A DNA stretch of 10,234 nt from Acidobacteriota bacterium. Lineage in GTDB: Bacteria > Acidobacteriota > Aminicenantia > UBA2199. The notes beneath the pieces were generated by a model. It was not told where the DNA came from. It was given only the letters and a program-made list of their open reading frames with translations, and ran no database searches. The position numbers and the translations under genes are program-made. The stretch spans positions 1 through 10,234 of the forward strand of contig JAKAGC010000085.1 of assembly GCA_021817755.1 (NCBI GenBank), read 5' to 3'. Positions 1,742 to 10,233 of the stretch are shown here, piece by piece (the first letter of the stretch is position 1; each line of letters starts with the position of its first letter).

Positions 1742-1794
1742 GCGACAGGTGAACCATTATTAGTCAACACCAGAAGACCTCGTATATTATTTTG

Positions 1795-1831
1795 AAGGGG
1801 CGGCATCTTCGGATGCCGCCTTTTCTTTTTT
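1795..1831 (+). terminator. Rho-independent terminator after the EF-hand cytochrome gene
   Basis: A perfect 9-bp stem (GGCGGCATC at 1799-1807 with GATGCCGCC at 1812-1820) closes a TTCG tetraloop. It is followed by TTTTCTTTTTTC. G-U and A-T pairs extend the stem by four into the T tract. This is a textbook intrinsic terminator and separates the first gene from the HybA-like operon. Confidence 0.93.
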
Positions 1832-1886: not shown

Positions 1887-1892
1887 ATAATT

Positions 1893-1896
1893 GGAG
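1893..1896 (+). promoter_or_regulatory. Ribosome binding site deciding the HybA-like start
   Basis: GGAG lies nine bases before the ATG at 1906. The alternative in-frame TTG at 1891 would overlap this site and add five residues before the Tat signal, so ATG 1906 is preferred. Confidence 0.7.
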
Positions 1897-1905
1897 ATAG
1901 ATAAA

Positions 1906-2844
1906 ATGGATCGACGATTATTCTTAACAACAGGTTTCGCTGCCCTTTCAGGAGCAGTTTTGGCTTCAGAAACCAAATCTTCGGAAAATAGAGAGATAAA
2001 AGCGATCGAGTCGGCACAAGTGGGATGCCTGGTTGATACAACTTTATGTATCGGGTGCCGGAAATGCGAGGAAGCATGTAATAGGAGAAATAATCTCCCG
2101 AGACCGGAAAATCCATTTACAGATCAAACAGTTTTTCGGGATCGCCGTCGTCCAACAGAAGGTGCATTTACTGTAGTAAATGAATATCCGGGAATGCCTT
2201 CGCCGGATCAGAAACAGATTGGTACGACTCATTGTAAAGTTCAATGTATGCATTGTTTAACGCCTTCATGTGTTTCAGCATGTTTGGTGGGAGCGATGAC
2301 AAAACAGATGGATGGTTCTGTGGTTTATAATAAGAACATTTGTCTGGGATGCAGGTATTGTATGGTAGCCTGTCCTTTCGAAATTCCGGCTTATGAATTT
2401 TCAGAGCCATTGAAACCGAAGGTCAGGAAATGTGAATTTTGCGCAGATTATAAAACAAAACAAGGAGCGAATCCTGCCTGTGCTGCGGCCTGTCCAACAG
2501 AAACCCTGGTATTCGGGAAACGTCAGGAGTTATTGGCGCTGGCACGGAGCCGGATAAAAAACCGTCCGGATCGCTACCTGGATTATATATATGGAGAATA
2601 TGAAGCGGGTGGGACCTCCTGGTTGTATCTAACGGGCCGCCCGATGAAAGAGATCGATCTTGTTCCAATGCCTATCAAATCTCCTGCGGTAACGACGGAA
2701 TCGATCCAACATGGTATTTTTAAATTTGGTATTATCCCGATGGCTCTTTATGGATTTTTAGCGGGTTTGATGTGGAAAAACAGAAAATCAGAAGAAAAAA
2801 ATGAATTAAAAAAAACAGAACAAACAGAGAGAGGTAAACAATGA
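1906..2844 (+). CDS. HybA-like Tat-exported ferredoxin subunit with four [4Fe-4S] clusters and C-terminal anchor
   Basis: A 312-residue iron-sulfur electron-transfer subunit of the HybA/DmsB/NrfC family. The N terminus MDRRLFLTTGFAAL is a twin-arginine signal, so the folded protein should sit on the periplasmic side. Four cysteine groups are visible: CIGCRKCEEAC (48-58), CMHCLTPSCVSAC (114-126), CLGCRYCMVAC (146-156), and CEFC (176) with CAAAC (192-196). This is the usual set of sixteen ligands for four cubane clusters; C41 and C110 are additional. Residues about 270-289 form a hydrophobic C-terminal helix followed by a basic and charged tail, as in HybA, anchoring it to the membrane. The stop overlaps the next start (ATGA), implying translational coupling to the HybB-type partner. 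In known systems HybA and HybB link a periplasmic hydrogenase to the quinone pool. No hydrogenase subunit is in the window, so the partner here is probably the heme domains of the next gene (inference). Confidence 0.9.
   Translation: MDRRLFLTTGFAALSGAVLASETKSSENREIKAIESAQVGCLVDTTLCIGCRKCEEACNRRNNLPRPENPFTDQTVFRDRRRPTEGAFTVVNEYPGMPSPDQKQIGTTHCKVQCMHCLTPSCVSACLVGAMTKQMDGSVVYNKNICLGCRYCMVACPFEIPAYEFSEPLKPKVRKCEFCADYKTKQGANPACAAACPTETLVFGKRQELLALARSRIKNRPDRYLDYIYGEYEAGGTSWLYLTGRPMKEIDLVPMPIKSPAVTTESIQHGIFKFGIIPMALYGFLAGLMWKNRKSEEKNELKKTEQTERGKQ
2827..2834 (+). promoter_or_regulatory. Ribosome binding site for the HybB-OTR fusion, inside the preceding gene
   Basis: GAGAGAGG sits six bases before ATG 2841, inside the last codons of the HybA-like gene. 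With the ATGA stop/start overlap it indicates coupled, roughly equal translation of the two subunits. Confidence 0.65.
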
Positions 2845-5800
2845 GTCCCCACCATTTCCACCCTCAACCACTTAAAAAGAAGTTCTTTACTCCGGGAACG
2901 TTCGTGTTAATGGTCTTGATGGGAATCGGAACATCCTTTGGACTGGCACGACTTTTAACGGGTTTGCAATCGGTTACGAATTTAAATAACAGTTACCCAT
3001 GGGGAATCTGGATCGCAATCGATGTTGCGTGTGGTGTGGCATTGGCAGCAGGAGGATTTACCACAGCGGCATTGGTTGATATCTTCGGAGGGAAAAAGTA
3101 TCATCCTCTATTACGACCGGCAGTTCTAACGGCATGGCTGGGTTATGTGATGGTAGCGATTGGGTTGATGTTCGACTTAGGCAGATACTGGAATATCTGG
3201 CAACCGATGTTTCACTGGCAAGGTAACTCGGTGATGTTCGAATTGGCAATGTGCGTTATGGCTTACCTGATCGTTTTAACATTCGAAATCGCTCCTTCAA
3301 TACTTGAAGGATTAAAAGAGCGAATAGCAAAAAATGAATGGGGGGCGGGTTTACTAAAAAAAGTTGAGAAACCTGTTCTTGTTATTCACTCCTGGATAAA
3401 AATCATACTTCCTATTTTTATTATAGCGGGCGTTGTTCTTTCGAGTATGCATCAATCCTCATTGGGAACGGTAATGGTTATATCACCTACAAAATTGAGT
3501 ACGTTATGGTATACACCATGGCTTCCGCTTCTCTTTTTATTATCAGCAATCATGGTAGGGTTTCCAATGGTTATCCTGGAGTCTATCAGCTCAAGCAAAG
3601 GATTGAAACGTCCGGTTGAAATGGAACTTTTAGAACCGTTGTCATCAAAAATTCCAATATTTATCGGTGTGTATGCGTGGTTTAAATTTGGTGATCTGGC
3701 ATTCAGGTTCAATGAGCTAAACTTCGTTGAATACCCGGGAGCCACTGTAGCATTCGCAATCGAAATCATCATGGGAATCATAGTACCTTTTATCCTTCTC
3801 TCTATGAAATCGGTTCGCCGATCAAAAGGATGGCTTTTAACTTCCTGTTTATTGGTGATATTCGGAGTGGCTTTGAACCGGATTAATGTATTCCTTGTGG
3901 GTTATCACCCGACATTCGCAAAAGTAAATTACTATCCGGCAGTAGGCGAAATTGCTCTGACAGTGGGATTAATTGCGTTTCTTATTTTTCTGTACCGGTT
4001 TTTTGTAAACTATTTTCCGATATTACCTGCAATTGAAGAAATATCGGAAGCAGAACCGTCTATTGAAGAAAAAATGGAAAAAGAAGAGCATATTCGACCT
4101 GTTACTGCATGGGTTTTCCGGGGAATAGCGGTTGTATTTTTGCTGACATTCATTATATTATATGTGGTTATCCATCAGAAAGCAATCAAAGCATCTTCAT
4201 TAACTTATGGAGAGGCATTTATTACAAAGATTCTTCAACCTCAAGTGGAAGAAGAAAAAGGATCACCTCATCAATTCCGTCCTGAAAAATACAGAAATTA
4301 TTATATGATGAACAGCCCGTTACTAAATGAAAAAATTAGTTATTATGAGCCTGTTCGGTTCAGTCATAGGAGTCATGATAATTATGTCAATGGAGATTGC
4401 GGGAAATGTCATCACAGGGTAGGGGATTCGTCAAATAGAATCGGAGATGATCTAAAAGAGATGCATGCCTCTATTGAAGTAAAGATTGGAGGGTCATGCT
4501 CAAATTGTCATAAAGACCTTGCAGAAAAGACATTCCAGAAATGCGGGGATTGTCACGCGAGTTCGAATGAAGCTGATTATCCAACGAGGATCGGGTTAAA
4601 AGGTGCTTACCACCGCCAGTGCATCGGATGTCACAGGGAACAACCACCTACGACGAAAGCACCTGTAGATTGTGTTTCTTGTCATCATCCGATTACTCCG
4701 GATCATACGGAGCTAATAAAAATGGCGGGCAATATTTCGCCACAAGCGATTACGCTTCAATGTCTGGAGTGTCACCCGAAAGTAGGACAGGATGTTATGA
4801 ATTCGGCACACTGGAACTGGAAAGGATTGACTCCTTCAATATCGGGGCATGAGCACAGTATAACCACAGGCTTGTTAATGGTAATGGATAATTATACGAT
4901 TTCATTAAGGCCAGACCTGGTAAATAGTAGTGCTCTTCACATTGGATATAGCCCTAAACCGGGGGATATCGATTTTAATAACCTTCGGAGTATCGATTGT
5001 CTGGTATGTCATGATACCACGGGTACTTATCGAAAGGATGAAAATCGAGGGGGTTTACCGGTAGCTTCAGTTAACCTGGTTGAAGTGGCACATAAAGTGG
5101 GGCGTCCTTCGCGTTCCAATTGCGGTCTATGTCATTATTATGCAGCAGGTGGACCGAATTATAAGCATGGAGACCTTGAAGGTGAGGCTGTAAATGCAGA
5201 TCCGGAGATGGATGTTCATATGGGAATGGCTGATATGCGTTGCCAGGAGTGTCATAAAACAAGTGCTCATCAGATAGCGGGAATGTCTTTTAATGTACCT
5301 GTAACAGAAGGCCGGGTAAGATGCGAATCGTGTCACAGCGAAACACCTCATGGTATAACGGGTTATTTGAGTCGCCATCTTGATGACCATGTACGTACGG
5401 TATCTTGTGAAACATGTCATATTCCATCTTTTGCAAGAAAAGCACCAACTCTGATGGCTACGGACTTCTCAACTGCGGGACAGGATCGAACTACAAAATT
5501 AGATAGTCTTGGTATGCCGGATTATAATAAGAATCAGGGTTCTCTTACCTGGGGCAAAAATGTAGTTCCGGTTTATAAATGGTATAATGGAACCCGGAAA
5601 TCCTATATTATGGGAGATAAAATCGATTCAATTGATTATATGGAACTGAATACACCGCAAGGTGAGAAACATATTCCTGAATCCCGGATTTTTCCATTTA
5701 AATTGCACACGGCTGTTCAACCTTACGATACTGAGAATAATATACTGGTTCCAGTAAAATTCAAAGATGAGTTTGAAAAAAATAATGATTGGAATAAGGC

Positions 5801-6125
5801 GATTACGAGTGCAATGAAATCAGTAAATCTGGATTATTCTGGGAAGTACGGTTTCGTAAAGACAGGGATGTATACTTCCATTCATCATGAAGTTGTTAGA
5901 GCAAAGCAAGCTTTGGGTTGTGCAGATTGTCACCGGGTAGAAGCGGTAAGCTGTAAGCGATGTCATAAAAATGCACAGGGAATGGATGAATTATCTCATA
6001 CTCAGATGATGTACCCGGAAGTGAAAAACAGGATGGATTTCAAATCCTTGGGGTATGAAGATGATCCGGCGATTATGGGAGGACGCTTCTATATGAAGTT
6101 GGGTCGTGGAAAACCTCCTGAATAA
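2841..6125 (+). CDS. HybB/NrfD-type membrane quinone module fused to five-heme and OTR-like octaheme cytochrome domains
   Basis: One uninterrupted 1094-residue frame. Residues 1-395 match HybB (about 390 residues): roughly ten hydrophobic helices and the HybB-like block NSVMFELAMCVMAYLIVLTF (129-148). This family exchanges electrons with quinone and has no heme of its own. An eleventh helix (about 422-445) follows a charged cytoplasmic-type linker and should carry the remainder to the periplasm. A five-heme segment has CXXCH at 520, 553, 568, 594 and 611. Residues about 625-1094 follow the octaheme tetrathionate reductase family: CLECH (641) with HWNW, DCLVCHDTTGTY (719-730), VGRPSRSNCGLCH, KHGDL, DVHM, CETCHIP (856), NVVPVYKWYNGT and MDFKSLGY. 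Hemes here are at 641, 720, 761, 801, 828, 856, 1027 and 1038. Compared with OTR as I recall it, the active-site heme motif is replaced by SSALH (696-700), and a new motif, CKRCH, appears at 1038. The likely role is quinone-linked electron transfer to or from the periplasm. The terminal acceptor is unknown. Confidence 0.88.
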   Translation: MSPHHFHPQPLKKKFFTPGTFVLMVLMGIGTSFGLARLLTGLQSVTNLNNSYPWGIWIAIDVACGVALAAGGFTTAALVDIFGGKKYHPLLRPAVLTAWLGYVMVAIGLMFDLGRYWNIWQPMFHWQGNSVMFELAMCVMAYLIVLTFEIAPSILEGLKERIAKNEWGAGLLKKVEKPVLVIHSWIKIILPIFIIAGVVLSSMHQSSLGTVMVISPTKLSTLWYTPWLPLLFLLSAIMVGFPMVILESISSSKGLKRPVEMELLEPLSSKIPIFIGVYAWFKFGDLAFRFNELNFVEYPGATVAFAIEIIMGIIVPFILLSMKSVRRSKGWLLTSCLLVIFGVALNRINVFLVGYHPTFAKVNYYPAVGEIALTVGLIAFLIFLYRFFVNYFPILPAIEEISEAEPSIEEKMEKEEHIRPVTAWVFRGIAVVFLLTFIILYVVIHQKAIKASSLTYGEAFITKILQPQVEEEKGSPHQFRPEKYRNYYMMNSPLLNEKISYYEPVRFSHRSHDNYVNGDCGKCHHRVGDSSNRIGDDLKEMHASIEVKIGGSCSNCHKDLAEKTFQKCGDCHASSNEADYPTRIGLKGAYHRQCIGCHREQPPTTKAPVDCVSCHHPITPDHTELIKMAGNISPQAITLQCLECHPKVGQDVMNSAHWNWKGLTPSISGHEHSITTGLLMVMDNYTISLRPDLVNSSALHIGYSPKPGDIDFNNLRSIDCLVCHDTTGTYRKDENRGGLPVASVNLVEVAHKVGRPSRSNCGLCHYYAAGGPNYKHGDLEGEAVNADPEMDVHMGMADMRCQECHKTSAHQIAGMSFNVPVTEGRVRCESCHSETPHGITGYLSRHLDDHVRTVSCETCHIPSFARKAPTLMATDFSTAGQDRTTKLDSLGMPDYNKNQGSLTWGKNVVPVYKWYNGTRKSYIMGDKIDSIDYMELNTPQGEKHIPESRIFPFKLHTAVQPYDTENNILVPVKFKDEFEKNNDWNKAITSAMKSVNLDYSGKYGFVKTGMYTSIHHEVVRAKQALGCADCHRVEAVSCKRCHKNAQGMDELSHTQMMYPEVKNRMDFKSLGYEDDPAIMGGRFYMKLGRGKPPE

Positions 6126-6144
6126 AAATATCGGGATGTAAGGG

Positions 6145-6165
6145 GGCAGGCGGGTAACGCCTGCC
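6145..6165 (+). terminator. GC-rich hairpin after the HybB-OTR gene, possible terminator
   Basis: GGCAGGCG (6145-6152) pairs perfectly with CGCCTGCC (6158-6165) around a GGTAA loop, 20 bases after the stop codon. The downstream DNA (TCAATTTGAATTTCATTTT) is T-rich but has no clean T run. It may be a weak intrinsic terminator or a 3'-end-stabilising hairpin. Confidence 0.55.
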
Positions 6166-6200
6166 TCAATTTGAATTTCATTTTAAATAGTAAGATTTTG

Positions 6201-6222
6201 GGGCGTGTACAAAAACACGCCC
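6201..6222. repeat. Second intergenic hairpin
   Basis: GGGCGTGT (6201-6208) pairs perfectly with ACACGCCC (6215-6222) around an ACAAAA loop. No T tract follows on either strand. It lies between the first hairpin and the promoter at 6263, so it could be a processing or protein-binding site, or a second part of the transcription end. Confidence 0.45.
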
Positions 6223-6262: not shown

Positions 6263-6291
6263 TTGAAACTGGTTCCGTTTTTTTTTATAAT
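6263..6291 (+). promoter_or_regulatory. Sigma70-like promoter for the 18-heme cytochrome gene
   Basis: TTGAAA (6263-6268) and TATAAT (6286-6291) are separated by exactly 17 bases. The -10 is a perfect consensus and the -35 matches four of six. Transcription would start near 6298, only about a dozen bases before ATG 6311, giving a very short leader beginning at the Shine-Dalgarno sequence. A run of nine T (6278-6286) fills the end of the spacer. Position after two hairpins and before a gene supports the call. The AT-rich context is the main reason for doubt. Confidence 0.6.
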
Positions 6292-6298
6292 TATGAGC

Positions 6299-6304
6299 AG
6301 GAGG
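6299..6304 (+). promoter_or_regulatory. Full-consensus Shine-Dalgarno deciding the start of the 18-heme cytochrome
   Basis: AGGAGG ends six bases before ATG 6311. Alternative in-frame starts at TTG 6263 and ATG 6293 lie in or before the promoter/SD sequence and have no comparable site, so 6311 is chosen. Confidence 0.8.
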
Positions 6305-6310
6305 AAGACG

Positions 6311-8446
6311 ATGAGTGATGAACAGATGATCGATGAAAAGGAAGAGGGTTTAAACACAACTAAAACAAAGAAAAAGGGAAAATTCAGATTGGTGATGAGA
6401 TTACTCAAACAGAATTTTATCTCATTACACCGTTTGATTTGGGGGAAAGGATGGAGAAGATTCATTTTCGCAATCGTTATTACATTGTTCCTGTTAACGG
6501 TTTTAATGTTCCTTAGCCTTGAGTTGACTTCGAAACCGAAATTCTGCAGTCTTTGTCATAATATGAAACCATATTATGCAAGCTGGATTAATTCCTCTCA
6601 TAAACATGTAACCTGTACGGATTGCCATTTTCCTCCGGGATTAAAAAATAAGCTAAAAGGAAAGTTTACTGCATTATCGATGCTGATGAATTATTTTACG
6701 GGTATTTACAAACGGAATAAGCCGTGGGCTGAAATTTCGGATGAAAGTTGTCTTCGGTCGGGATGTCATGATACGCGTTTATTACAAGGGAAAGTGAAAT
6801 TTAAAGAGAATATTACATTCGACCATGCTCCTCACTTAATAGAATTACGAAGAGGAAAAAAGTTACGATGTACGAGTTGTCATTCGCAGATTGTTCAAGG
6901 GAGTCATATGACAGTTACGGAAAATACCTGTTTCTTGTGTCATTTTGCAAAGAATCCGGGAGTGAATGAAACAAATAACAATCATGAAATGATCGTTTCT
7001 CAAAATTCATTAAATAAATGTACTCGGTGCCACTCCGCTCCTGTGAAAGACAAAGGGGTAAAAGCCGGAATTGGTGAAACTCCGATTTATGATCATAAAA
7101 TTGTGGTAGAAAAAAATATAGATTGCCAGAGATGCCATGGTTCTATGGTTATTGGGGATGGTTATGTTCCGAAAAGCAGGTGTGATACCTGTCATGGCGA
7201 AGCAGATAAAATTAAACTTTATAATAATACAGCTTTGATTCATAAGAATCATATCACGGATCATAAAATCGAATGTGAACAATGCCATACAGAAATCCAG
7301 CATAAATCGGTTTCTCGTACTGAAATGGTAAAACCGGATTGTTCGGGATGCCACCCGCAATTCCATAATGCTCAATTGGATATGTTCGCAGGAAAGGAAG
7401 GAAAAGGAGTTCCTCTTCATCCATCATCGATGTTTGAAGCGGGCTTAAACTGCCGTGCCTGTCATATGCATAAAAAAACAACTGGGGATTTCGAATTGAA
7501 TGGTGAAACCTATTATCCATCAGGAGAAGAATGCAATTCCTGTCATGGCAAGGGTTATGATAGAGTGATGAATAATTGGATTACGCAGTCAGAAAGCCGT
7601 TTAAATCAACTTTCTAAAGTATTGGATACGGCTGGAAATTTAGTGAAAACTAAAACGTCGAATGCAAATTACGGGGATGCTTCCCAATTGTTAAAAGATG
7701 CAATCTATAATTTCAAGCTGGTTAAATTCGGAAAAGCAGTTCATAACATCGACTATGCAAATCAATTAATGATGGCTTCATACAATGGAGCGGAACAGAG
7801 TCTTAAATTACTGGGAATCAATGTTTCGCTTCCTTCATTCGATAAGACTTTGTCATTGATCCCTGGAGAATGTTCGAGTTGCCATTCAGGATTCGAGCGT
7901 AAACCGATCGATATTTTCGGATGGAAATTTTCCCATAATATCCATCTTGAAAAAGGGGCACTTGATTGTAAAAATTGCCACTCTAATGATCCGAAACATG
8001 GGACTCTTATGATCGACAAACAAGGTTGTATGAATTGCCATCATAAACAAGCACAGGGGACAAAAGAATTGGATTGCAAACAGTGTCATAATGTTCAACA
8101 GAACATCTATTATAGCACCCTTGAATTTTATACGTTTAAGCTTCCGAATGTAATGAGTGAAAGTGTGACTTGTACGGATTGCCATTTGGATCAAAACAAA
8201 AAGATTATTCGTCCGAATAAAACTGTATGCACCTCGTGTCATGATAAAGATTATGAACAAATGTTCGATGATTGGCAGGAAACTGCAAAATCCCTGATGG
8301 AGCAACTGCGTGATAAAGTAAAACGGGAAAAATTAAAGCCGGGAGATCGAGCGTATGATATACTAATGCTGTTAGAGAAAGATGGGAGTAAAGGAATCCA
8401 TAATACTGAATTGTATGATAAACTTATAGAAGAAGCTAAAAAATAG
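6311..8446 (+). CDS. NapC/NirT/NrfH-like quinol dehydrogenase fused to a long multiheme cytochrome (18 heme motifs)
   Basis: A 711-residue protein. A basic cytoplasmic N terminus (1-50) is followed by one membrane helix (about 51-71) and the NapC/NirT signature: CSLCHNMKPYYASW (79-92), SSHKHVTC, CTDCHFPPG (102-110). This family takes electrons from menaquinol or ubiquinol at the outer face of the inner membrane. The third site is CLRSGCH (147-153), a CX4CH motif. Further CXXCH motifs begin at 187, 207, 237, 272, 291, 322, 344, 381, 408, 521, 553, 573, 589, 621 and 640, making 17 CXXCH plus one CX4CH. Two stretches look related: each is a heme array ending in CxSCH-x3-Y-x6-W, then a helical heme-free segment with an HN motif (AVHNIDYANQL near 476-486; GIHNTELYDKL near 695-705). 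It has its own promoter and probably feeds periplasmic or outer-membrane acceptors. No catalytic site is recognised and the substrate is unknown. Confidence 0.88.
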   Translation: MSDEQMIDEKEEGLNTTKTKKKGKFRLVMRLLKQNFISLHRLIWGKGWRRFIFAIVITLFLLTVLMFLSLELTSKPKFCSLCHNMKPYYASWINSSHKHVTCTDCHFPPGLKNKLKGKFTALSMLMNYFTGIYKRNKPWAEISDESCLRSGCHDTRLLQGKVKFKENITFDHAPHLIELRRGKKLRCTSCHSQIVQGSHMTVTENTCFLCHFAKNPGVNETNNNHEMIVSQNSLNKCTRCHSAPVKDKGVKAGIGETPIYDHKIVVEKNIDCQRCHGSMVIGDGYVPKSRCDTCHGEADKIKLYNNTALIHKNHITDHKIECEQCHTEIQHKSVSRTEMVKPDCSGCHPQFHNAQLDMFAGKEGKGVPLHPSSMFEAGLNCRACHMHKKTTGDFELNGETYYPSGEECNSCHGKGYDRVMNNWITQSESRLNQLSKVLDTAGNLVKTKTSNANYGDASQLLKDAIYNFKLVKFGKAVHNIDYANQLMMASYNGAEQSLKLLGINVSLPSFDKTLSLIPGECSSCHSGFERKPIDIFGWKFSHNIHLEKGALDCKNCHSNDPKHGTLMIDKQGCMNCHHKQAQGTKELDCKQCHNVQQNIYYSTLEFYTFKLPNVMSESVTCTDCHLDQNKKIIRPNKTVCTSCHDKDYEQMFDDWQETAKSLMEQLRDKVKREKLKPGDRAYDILMLLEKDGSKGIHNTELYDKLIEEAKK

Positions 8447-8670: not shown

Positions 8671-10233
8671 CTAACTTTTAAACCGTAGAGCGGTTTCTAT
8701 TTCTTTATAATAGCTCTCAGAACTCAATAGATGTGGAATATCGGGATTAAACGTTTTTATTTCAGAGGGGGTGGGGTCAAATTGGGGAGCTCCCGTTTCA
8801 TTTGGATAATTTTTAATCTCACCGGAGAAACGATTGACTTCCTTAATTTCAGAGGTAATCTGTTCTACGGACGAATAATTCATCTTTAAGTTGAACTTTT
8901 CAGCAAGAGAGAGAAGGATTTTCCAGTTTTCCATACCACTTTGAGGAGGAACGATTTGTTTAACGAATTGAACGCGCCTGTCACATGCGGTATATGAACC
9001 ATCCTGTTCAATAAATGAAGCTGCTGGAATTACGACATCTGCGGCATCGGTGGTAGAAGTTACGAACATATCCTGTACCATCAGGAATTCGATTCCTTTA
9101 AAATACTTGAGGTTATCCTGAATGTACAGTGGATCTTCTCCAAAAACGAGGAGAGCTTTTATACTTCCATGGAGTAGTTTCTCGGCAACATCGGTGGGTT
9201 TGAATATTCCGGTCAAATCAACTCCCCATTTGGAACCGATCCGTTTGATTTCCTGGGTTTCAAAAGGCTTCACATATCCGGGGAGGTAGTTGGGTGTTAA
9301 ACCGACTTCCTTTACACCGGTTGAATTGGCGTATTCCCGAAGAATGATAATACCGTTTCCGGGTTTCGCAATTCGACCTGTTAACATCAGGAAATTTCCA
9401 ATGGCTTTCAAATCGCCGGCTGACTTTTCACGTAATGAATCGAGATTGTAAACAAATACGATTTTCTGTTCGGGGTTTTCAAGAAGCGTCAGAAGCTCAT
9501 GGTATTTCTGAGGGAAAATATCAGTAATTTCAACAACTTTTTCGGGTGTAAACGGTTCAACCATTTTACCGAGTTCTTCAAAACCGGTATTATTGGATTG
9601 AGCATTATCATATTGTTTGCCTTTGAGTAAATGGCGGATAATACCGTTCAATAATACAGTGTTGGAACCTTTTCGTGAATCGATCCAGAGGTCGGCATGC
9701 TTGGTGAGTTTGACTTCAGAGGAATTGATAAGTACGAGTTGAGTACCATTTTTCTTCTGGGCTTCTTTGATCTGGAGTTCCACAATGAGTTTTTCTTCTG
9801 ATAGACTTCCATTTATCACGACTACGACATCGGCGGATTTAATATCATCCATTGAAGCAGTAGAAGCTGTAACACCGAGCATAGTATCGAGACTATCCTG
9901 TTCCTGTCCGTACAATGTATCAGAGAAAGTACCGACATTATTGGTTTTCAAACCGGCGCGGCTGAATTTCTGAAGGAGGTATAATTCCTCATTGGAGAGC
10001 TTGGGAGAACCAAATATGGCGACAGAATCGGGACCATATTTTTGGATGGTTTCCTTTACTTTTTGAGCGGTGTAATCGATGGCTTTTTCCCATGTTACCT
10101 GGTTATAAACACCTGAGGTTTTATCTTTGAGCATAGGAGTTTTTAGTCTGTTATCTTCCATGAGGTAACGATGACCGAACCGTCCTTTTACACACAAATA
10201 ACCTTTATTCAACGAATCCATAACATTTTGGGT
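8671..10233 (-). CDS. FdhA/NuoG-type molybdopterin-oxidoreductase-family protein lacking formate dehydrogenase catalytic residues (5' end outside window)
   Basis: The frame stays open upstream of the ATG at 10221 (TQNV-MDSLNKGYLCVKG), and the region resembles the last-cysteine segment of the family's [4Fe-4S] domain (GxLCVKGRFG). The start and the other cluster cysteines are therefore outside. Family blocks: RLKTPML, TWEKAIDY, NEELYLLQKFSRA, TNNV (93-96 counting from that Met), ADVVVVINGS, HADLWIDSRKGSN, GNGIIILRE, LPGY (313-316), ADVVIPAASFIEQDGSY and DRRVQFVKQ. Where formate dehydrogenases have a Cys or Sec followed by His after TNNV, this protein has LY (103-104). The NNVQG-type motif is replaced by ANSTG. 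The C-terminal molybdopterin-dinucleotide barrel domain seems absent: the protein ends soon after NWKILLSLAEKF. It may therefore be a non-catalytic NuoG-like subunit carrying iron-sulfur clusters in an NADH- or ferredoxin-linked cytoplasmic complex. The partner genes are not visible. Confidence 0.8.
   Translation of the reverse strand, partial: TQNVMDSLNKGYLCVKGRFGHRYLMEDNRLKTPMLKDKTSGVYNQVTWEKAIDYTAQKVKETIQKYGPDSVAIFGSPKLSNEELYLLQKFSRAGLKTNNVGTFSDTLYGQEQDSLDTMLGVTASTASMDDIKSADVVVVINGSLSEEKLIVELQIKEAQKKNGTQLVLINSSEVKLTKHADLWIDSRKGSNTVLLNGIIRHLLKGKQYDNAQSNNTGFEELGKMVEPFTPEKVVEITDIFPQKYHELLTLLENPEQKIVFVYNLDSLREKSAGDLKAIGNFLMLTGRIAKPGNGIIILREYANSTGVKEVGLTPNYLPGYVKPFETQEIKRIGSKWGVDLTGIFKPTDVAEKLLHGSIKALLVFGEDPLYIQDNLKYFKGIEFLMVQDMFVTSTTDAADVVIPAASFIEQDGSYTACDRRVQFVKQIVPPQSGMENWKILLSLAEKFNLKMNYSSVEQITSEIKEVNRFSGEIKNYPNETGAPQFDPTPSEIKTFNPDIPHLLSSESYYKEIETALRFKS

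Follow-up and report, generated by a model that had tools for sequence, protein, structure and literature searches.

In the NrfABCD and MccACD systems, an NrfD-type quinol module passes electrons to an iron-sulfur (Fe-S) protein and on to a multiheme reductase, and alternative complex III (ACIII), a quinol:acceptor oxidoreductase, pairs an NrfD-type subunit with a pentaheme cytochrome in the periplasm, according to a review of NrfD proteins (PMC8076601). The Hmc and Nhc complexes of sulfate reducers are described as a multiheme cytochrome c together with a HybA-like and a ten-helix HybB-like subunit (PMC8076601, PMC6303296), and HybB, HmcC, and QrcD group together as proteins of ten helices, for which a role as quinone reductases with cytoplasmic proton uptake has been argued (PMC6303296). 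In Shewanella, quinol electrons can reach octaheme tetrathionate reductase (OTR) through a small multiheme shuttle, the S. oneidensis enzyme receiving them by way of CymA and STC (PMC4484225). Here we analyze a gene in a 10,234-nucleotide stretch of DNA from an Acidobacteriota bacterium (contig JAKAGC010000085.1; the whole stretch is called the window below), the product of which joins a HybB/NrfD-like membrane half, five hemes, and an OTR-homologous domain in one chain. In the branch of the family to which the window belongs, this domain has lost its catalytic heme, and the protein is therefore probably an electron wire and not the reductase of its automatic name. The gene, its parts, and its upstream partner are as follows:

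2841..6125, + strand: fusion gene (HybB part, transmembrane helix, pentaheme segment, OTR-like heme domain), 1094 amino acids, 13 CXXCH motifs
2841..4040, + strand: HybB/NrfD-like membrane half, residues 1-400 (Pfam, NCBIfam, Foldseek)
4101..4181, + strand: additional predicted transmembrane helix, about residues 421-447 (hydropathy peak 426-444; model helix 420-458)
4329..4700, + strand: pentaheme segment, residues 497-620
4701..5942, + strand: OTR-homologous domain, residues 621-1034 (TIGR04315; 1sp3 by phmmer and Foldseek)
4926..4940, + strand: place of the missing OTR heme II, SSALH at residues 696-700, against C74-T-S-C77-H78 in 1sp3; the His is kept
5163..5165, + strand: Lys775, aligned with OTR Lys153 and kept despite the missing heme II motif
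5952..5966, + strand: extra heme motif CKRCH, residues 1038-1042
1891..2844, + strand: HybA/HmcB-like Fe-S subunit, 317 amino acids from a TTG start (profile scores, Cys motifs)

The fusion frame begins with ATG and has zero internal stops. Both Pfam domains scored above their cut-offs, PF03916 (NrfD) at residues 45-355 (76.3 bits, cut-off 25.8) and PF11783 at residues 872-1032 (162.9 bits, cut-off 22.1), as did the NCBIfam model TIGR04315 over residues 621-1034 (408.6 bits, cut-off 375). CXXCH motifs start at residues 520, 553, 568, 594, and 611 in the pentaheme segment and at 641, 720, 761, 801, 828, 856, 1027, and 1038 beyond it. An earlier note on this DNA, made from the letters alone, had claimed a single uninterrupted frame linking HybB to a heme protein with 13 CXXCH motifs (5 + 8), and the open reading frame, the Pfam domains, and the motif count all agree with it; 2841-6125 is confirmed as a genuine join of a HybB/NrfD membrane half, five hemes, and an OTR-homologous domain. 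The NCBIfam HybB model PRK10881 (323.1 bits over residues 8-397) stayed under its cut-off of 450, and the fusion was likewise under the cut-offs for HmcC (257.6 vs. 550), HmcA (45.1 vs. 400), and QrcD (106.5 bits vs. 570).

This architecture is common to many uncultured bacteria. A protein search of 5.8 billion sequences scored 7,993 candidates, and 402 of these matched at E ≤ 1e-3; all of the 120 matches listed contain both PF03916 and PF11783, at lengths of 1033-1105 amino acids and with either 13 (41 proteins) or 14 (79 proteins) CXXCH motifs. Further searches with P0049, a 13-heme protein, and with the G200 protein gave 529 and 503 matches (120 listed each). The first 120 matches, 31 added homologues, and the window protein make up the 152 rows aligned here, and at least 90% of both domain stretches is covered in 151 of them, the exception being P0122, a fragment of 947 amino acids that covers 69% of the NrfD stretch. 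Outside plain Acidobacteriota, single listed matches bear the names Candidatus Binatia, Thermoanaerobaculia (an Acidobacteriota class), and Methylomirabilota. Within a phylum sample of 396 genomes, 15 (own included) matched at E ≤ 1e-100, namely the window's genome (G000), 13 other fusion carriers, and G341, which has a stand-alone OTR only; confinement of the fusion to the window's lineage was rejected because of those 13. The fusion is split over contigs in G268 and G367, cut by contig ends in G249 and G361, and present in G200 in a 5.1-Mb single-contig genome. Closer to the window, 10 of 60 near relatives (own included) matched at E ≤ 1e-3, and the same-genus genomes G001 and G003 (split over two contigs in the latter) are the only fusion carriers besides G000. 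A genome-contig scan found eight loci, all stand-alone OTRs, and no named organism with the fusion. A plasmid collection yielded 21 records, with coverage of the query below 80% in each, and the best 20 of these match the HybB part or the OTR part separately.

The same searches bear on whether the join could be an artefact of a frameshift, a chimeric assembly, or a misbinned contig. Such an origin might be suspected because the window is the entire contig of an 80% complete draft genome, but a full-length relative, 96% identical, lies on a 23-kb contig, 119 further listed relatives are of similar length, and one copy sits in the single-contig genome. With relatives of like length sharing the architecture and the sampled fusions forming one clade, the assembly join that the earlier note had put up against its own claim is rejected, and we find an artefact of any of these kinds scarcely credible.

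The C-terminal part of the fusion is homologous to OTR along most of its length. A phmmer comparison with the S. oneidensis structure 1sp3 gave 7e-93 over residues 634-1032, and an AlphaFold model of the fusion chain (72 sequences) matched 1sp3 in Foldseek with a TM-score of 0.87, normalized by 1sp3. Seven of the eight OTR heme motifs are in register. At the remaining one, N61-N-F-C64...C74-T-S-C77-H78 of 1sp3 corresponds to D683-N-Y-T686...S696-S-A-L699-H700 of the window. Heme II, as numbered by motif order, is described as the catalytic heme of OTR (PMC4484225), and the active-site heme of OTR is reported to have a lysine ligand (PMC12285233). That the window still shows eight C-terminal motifs is due to the motif at 1038, which restores the number in the absence of heme II. 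This extra motif occurs in 152/152 fusion rows, and all 17 whole stand-alone OTRs have only eight CXXCH motifs and nothing aligned at window position 1038, 1sp3 itself having entered the alignment with residues 15-416 only. The octaheme OTR domain claimed earlier therefore does not hold as such; its eight motifs are not the eight OTR hemes, and a C-terminal part that lacks heme II and a counterpart of Cys64 falls short of a full OTR octaheme center. Both the Cys64 equivalent and the heme II CXXCH are kept in 18/18 stand-alone OTRs (1sp3 plus 17). We take Cys64 and Lys153 to be active-site residues of OTR, which agrees with the numbering of the 1sp3 alignment.

The heme II motif is absent in 43 and present in 109 of the 152 fusion rows, a ratio that should not be read as a natural frequency, the homologues having been gathered by their likeness to the window, P0049, and the G200 protein. 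None of the three cysteines (C64, C74, C77) occurs in any of the 43 rows without heme II. These rows keep His700 (43/43) and mostly Lys775 (40/43), have Asp in place of Asn61 (Asp683; 42/43), and often have Phe at the second Cys position (34/43). They also share Phe817 (42/43, with one gap), which is outside the four commonest residues in 14-heme rows. Where heme II is present, the His is invariant (109/109) and the place of Lys153 is taken by Lys in 96 rows, Arg in 12, and Leu in 1.

A quick tree (support by Shimodaira-Hasegawa-like approximate likelihood ratio test, SH-aLRT; no bootstrap) was built from 112 rows, comprising 94 fusions and 18 stand-alone OTRs; it precedes the addition of the 31 homologues and leaves out every second 14-heme database match, L046, L035, the pieces L043 and L045, and the heme II columns. 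All 94 fusions fall on one side of a branch with SH-aLRT support of 100, apart from the 18 stand-alone OTRs. Heme II needs two changes on this tree, one for a clade of 43 rows (support 98) and one for P0061 alone, and the sampled rows without heme II are nearly all in one clade. P0061 represents an independent loss of heme II within a 14-heme clade, in which the His is kept and the Lys is replaced by Ala.

At the other end of the chain, the HybB half is 32% identical to E. coli HybB. We compared the 25 residues listed for that protein in PMC8076601, of which 17 are identical in the window (D58, Y84, H85, R89, Y99, D109, S129, E133, Y141, E148, E155, H184, S186, S187, K198, E291, R329) and eight differ (T63, Y77, S95, S105, S190, H200, R265, here Lys, and E268, here Asp). 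Apart from Y84 and H85, which vary in the family, the identical residues are kept in at least 137 of the 152 rows. R89, Y99, E148, and H184, whose replacement in E. coli HybB is reported to have lowered H2 oxidation (PMC8076601), are all identical in the window. Judged by these positions, the quinone-site and proton-channel residues are kept, in the main though not in full, which supports the claim of a HybB-type quinone module. Foldseek comparison of the modeled membrane half with ACIII subunits C and F, the closest solved folds, gave target-normalized TM-scores of 0.54-0.65 (0.62-0.65 for subunit C).

Between the HybB part and the hemes, the hydropathy profile and the model predict a further transmembrane helix, which corrects the earlier description, where it is absent; the model helix is of low confidence at both ends. 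Given a helix at about residues 421-447, the heme arm should be periplasmic, and the proposed covalent link of a quinone module to a multiheme arm is borne out. All five motifs of the pentaheme segment occur in 152/152 rows, and the segment partly resembles the C-terminal end of HmcA/nine-heme cytochrome, the HmcA model matching at residues 551-616.

The gene directly upstream encodes a HybA-like protein with four Fe-S Cys motifs and a C-terminal transmembrane helix (276-294), 34% identical to E. coli HybA. Its sixth codon (1906) is ATG and starts the twin-arginine stretch MDRRLFL. It scored 315.5 bits against the HmcB model (cut-off 420) and 262.4 bits against the HybA model (cut-off 263). 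The two genes overlap by ATGA. We compared 19 loci (the window and relatives) from 16 genomes. Four are cut by contig ends, and in all 15 that include the start of the fusion gene, the HybA-like gene lies directly upstream, which supports the HybA-like partner named in the earlier note; what is conserved is an operon of two genes. The self-contained quinone-to-periplasm module proposed in the earlier note thus stands in part. The covalent link is there and a quinone-to-periplasm direction is plausible, but the module is not fully self-contained because the HybA-like Fe-S protein is encoded separately.

Set beside the described systems, the fusion shares with OTR the fold, seven heme motifs in register, and the equivalents of Lys153 and His78, and differs in being tethered to HybB and a pentaheme segment, in lacking the heme II motif and Cys64, and in having one extra C-terminal heme. 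Hydrogenase-2 of E. coli is matched by both proteins in sequence and by the partner in its four Fe-S motifs and twin-arginine motif, whereas both window proteins remain under the equivalog cut-offs (HybA by 0.6 bits), a fused heme arm takes the part of electron partner, and no hydrogenase family (HybO/HybC) was found among the window's five main proteins, the loci of relatives not having been scanned for hydrogenase. In Hmc and Nhc the cytochrome is separate, of another family, and has 16 or 9 hemes, whereas that of the window is OTR-derived and forms the C-terminus of the membrane subunit. NrfABCD and MccACD consist of separate polypeptides with NrfA or MccA, not OTR, as the catalytic cytochrome. 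Unlike ACIII, the window pair has neither an adjacent Mo-family-like large subunit nor a second NrfD, and its hemes are covalently joined to the membrane subunit. Relative to CymA-STC-OTR, the window has a quinone module, a shuttle-like pentaheme, and an OTR-like domain in one chain, and by analogy the fusion could replace the CymA-STC route to OTR. Fourteen complexes are named in the Figure 1 legend of the NrfD review, whose main text has no word starting "fused" or "fusion" (PMC8076601). The earlier note knew of no characterized enzyme with this architecture, and we likewise found no account of a HybB-OTR fusion in the accessible text of the open-access literature, including PMC6896113, PMC13186404, and PMC8840924, most subscription papers lying outside the search.

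We tentatively favor, with a confidence barely past the midpoint, a two-gene complex that would carry electrons from quinol to the periplasm, with the OTR-derived domain as a relay in the 13-heme subfamily. The HybA-like Fe-S subunit and the HybB-multiheme fusion would form a membrane complex, and menaquinol would bind to the HybB half on its periplasmic side. Electrons would then run from the Fe-S clusters of the HybA-like protein through the tethered pentaheme segment to the heme array derived from OTR, and periplasmic cytochromes or reductases would take them up; one such acceptor could be the complete stand-alone OTR of the same genome. The role of the OTR-derived domain in the 13-heme subfamily would be that of an electron relay or docking module and not of a tetrathionate or nitrite reductase; the 14-heme relatives could still be quinol-fed reductases. 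We infer the detailed topology, the order and direction of electron flow, the partners, and the lack of activity, beyond what can be read from the sequence: the fusion, the partner gene, the kept quinone and proton residues, and the absent heme II motif.

The presence of other reductases in the same genomes is relevant here. A complete stand-alone OTR above the TIGR04315 cut-off occurs in all four genomes whose fusion is read as lacking heme II (G000, G001, G003, and G116) and in 0/11 genomes with a 14-heme fusion, G099 being classed among the latter by motif count only. One of the 14-heme carriers, G074, has a 273-bit TIGR04315 match, below the cut-off, that contains the heme II CXXCH but no Cys in the Cys64 position. 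A Fisher test gave 0.013 when G367 was scored among the genomes without heme II and G074 among those with an OTR. For NrfA-type nitrite reductase (PF02335), G268 is the only one of the 16 genomes with a strong match, and G000 has none. In the window's genome, the stand-alone OTR (L049, G000 C115, 1615-5530) is directly followed by a large multiheme frame of about 780-840 amino acids, as is that of the same-genus G001 (C52), and this frame is possibly its redox partner.

Several points weigh against an outward-directed relay. Its direction from quinol to the periplasm, which seems to us only slightly more likely than not, is the weakest point, since HybB/HmcC/QrcD-type modules have been argued to reduce quinone, in the opposite direction (PMC6303296). 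The co-occurrence of OTRs is a hint only, because three of the four genomes with a complete stand-alone OTR belong to one genus and the genomes are incomplete; G367, whose fusion is split at heme II and unreadable there, is without a stand-alone OTR above the cut-off. The Cys64 equivalent is missing in 24 of the 109 fusions that have heme II (kept in 85), so its loss alone is not diagnostic. TIGR04315 scores above its cut-off despite the loss of heme II, and the conservation of His700, Lys775, and Asp683 is higher than one would expect of a site that had simply been given up. Finally, the fusion model is of middling confidence (mean predicted local distance difference test, pLDDT, 66.5; predicted template modeling score, pTM, 0.46) and contains no hemes.

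The same complex might run in reverse, from low-potential periplasmic cytochromes to menaquinone with protons taken from the cytoplasm and energy conserved, as in Qrc, Nhc, or hydrogenase-2. The kept channel residues, the direction argued for HybB, HmcC, and QrcD (PMC6303296), the better score of the Fe-S partner with HmcB, and the likeness of the pentaheme segment to the HmcA/nine-heme C-terminus all speak for this. We nevertheless think it rather unlikely, as the 14-heme relatives keep the catalytic heme of a reductase for high-potential acceptors, suggesting ancestral quinol oxidation, stand-alone OTRs co-occur with the fusion, and the window's five main proteins include no hydrogenase family; the reductase-type heme of the 14-heme relatives and the co-resident complete OTRs argue for quinol oxidation. 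The OTR name would instead make the protein a working one-chain quinol:tetrathionate (or nitrite/hydroxylamine) reductase, and the TIGR04315 score, the OTR fold, and the kept Lys153 equivalent fit that name, which suits the 14-heme relatives well. For the window it is very improbable, given that all three cysteines (the heme II pair and Cys64) are lost there and in 43/152 rows, and that a complete OTR is encoded separately in the same genome. Also on the side of a reductase, an Acidobacteriota otr transcript, perhaps from a fusion gene, is reported to rise 36-fold with tetrathionate (PMC8528874), but the tetrathionate-induced otr of Ca. Sulfomarinibacter is not usable as proof. Neither of the published otr primers occurs in any examined locus at ≤3 mismatches; the forward primer is found in 8 of the 396 genomes at ≤1 mismatch, in frames without CXXCH, the reverse primer being absent from the stretch examined.

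A site that has been remodeled, and not merely lost, would account for the near-constant His, Lys, and Asn-to-Asp change and for the two Phe positions, Phe817 being rare in rows with heme II. Heme II might be held non-covalently (b-type), or another metal might sit between His700, Asp683, and Lys775 as a new catalytic center. A salt bridge and packing could equally fill the emptied pocket, and the independent loss in P0061 keeps the His but has Ala for the Lys, and we consider such a center doubtful at best. Doubtful, too, to nearly the same degree, is that the 13-heme site with its non-covalent heme or other metal runs a different reaction wired to the quinone pool within one polypeptide. The kept His, Lys, and Asp mark a pocket that was repacked or, alternatively, a site put to new use.

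A segment of a respiratory chain (quinone module, shuttle hemes, and reductase-type domain) is here packed into one conserved protein that occurs in Acidobacteriota and, by single match names, in Binatia and Methylomirabilota. Homologues carry the automatic names "octaheme c-type cytochrome (tetrathionate reductase family)" and "Ni/Fe-hydrogenase cytochrome b subunit." Because one clade is without the catalytic heme motif, treating genes so named in metagenomes as a sign of tetrathionate or nitrite reducers could mislead. The 13- and 14-heme forms offer a natural experiment on an OTR domain without its active site.

Two stretches flank the gene pair:

1794..1825, + strand: terminator-like hairpin of 14 pairs with a T run, after the upstream cytochrome gene; putative upstream limit of the two-gene operon
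6143..6222, + strand: two weakly T-tailed hairpins (6143-6167 and 6201-6222) that follow the fusion gene and may end the operon

The region holds seven terminator-like sites, and shuffled sequence gives 5.8 on average (sd 2.5). The count itself is therefore no evidence, and for this reason the bracketing of the gene pair by terminators depends on the long stem at 1794. Multiheme genes lie on both sides of the pair (2-1741 and 6263-8446); we do not favor them as members of the complex, as they were unmatched in the 18 other loci (threshold E ≤ 1e-10 and >60 bits) and are set apart by the hairpins. Against this rejection, the fusion operon of G116 has an unrelated 11-heme gene next to it in divergent orientation (L052 5111-7066, - strand). 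The upstream gene (2-1741, + strand), truncated by the contig end, encodes a multiheme cytochrome with eight CXXCH motifs, an internal duplication (40% identity), and acidic loops reminiscent of calcium-binding repeats; it had zero matches in the PDB at E ≤ 1e-3. The downstream gene (6263-8446, + strand) encodes a 17-heme protein with an NrfH/NapC-like N-terminal anchor. Convergent with these cytochromes, 8671-10221 (- strand) encodes a formate dehydrogenase alpha-like molybdopterin protein, which is open at the contig end.

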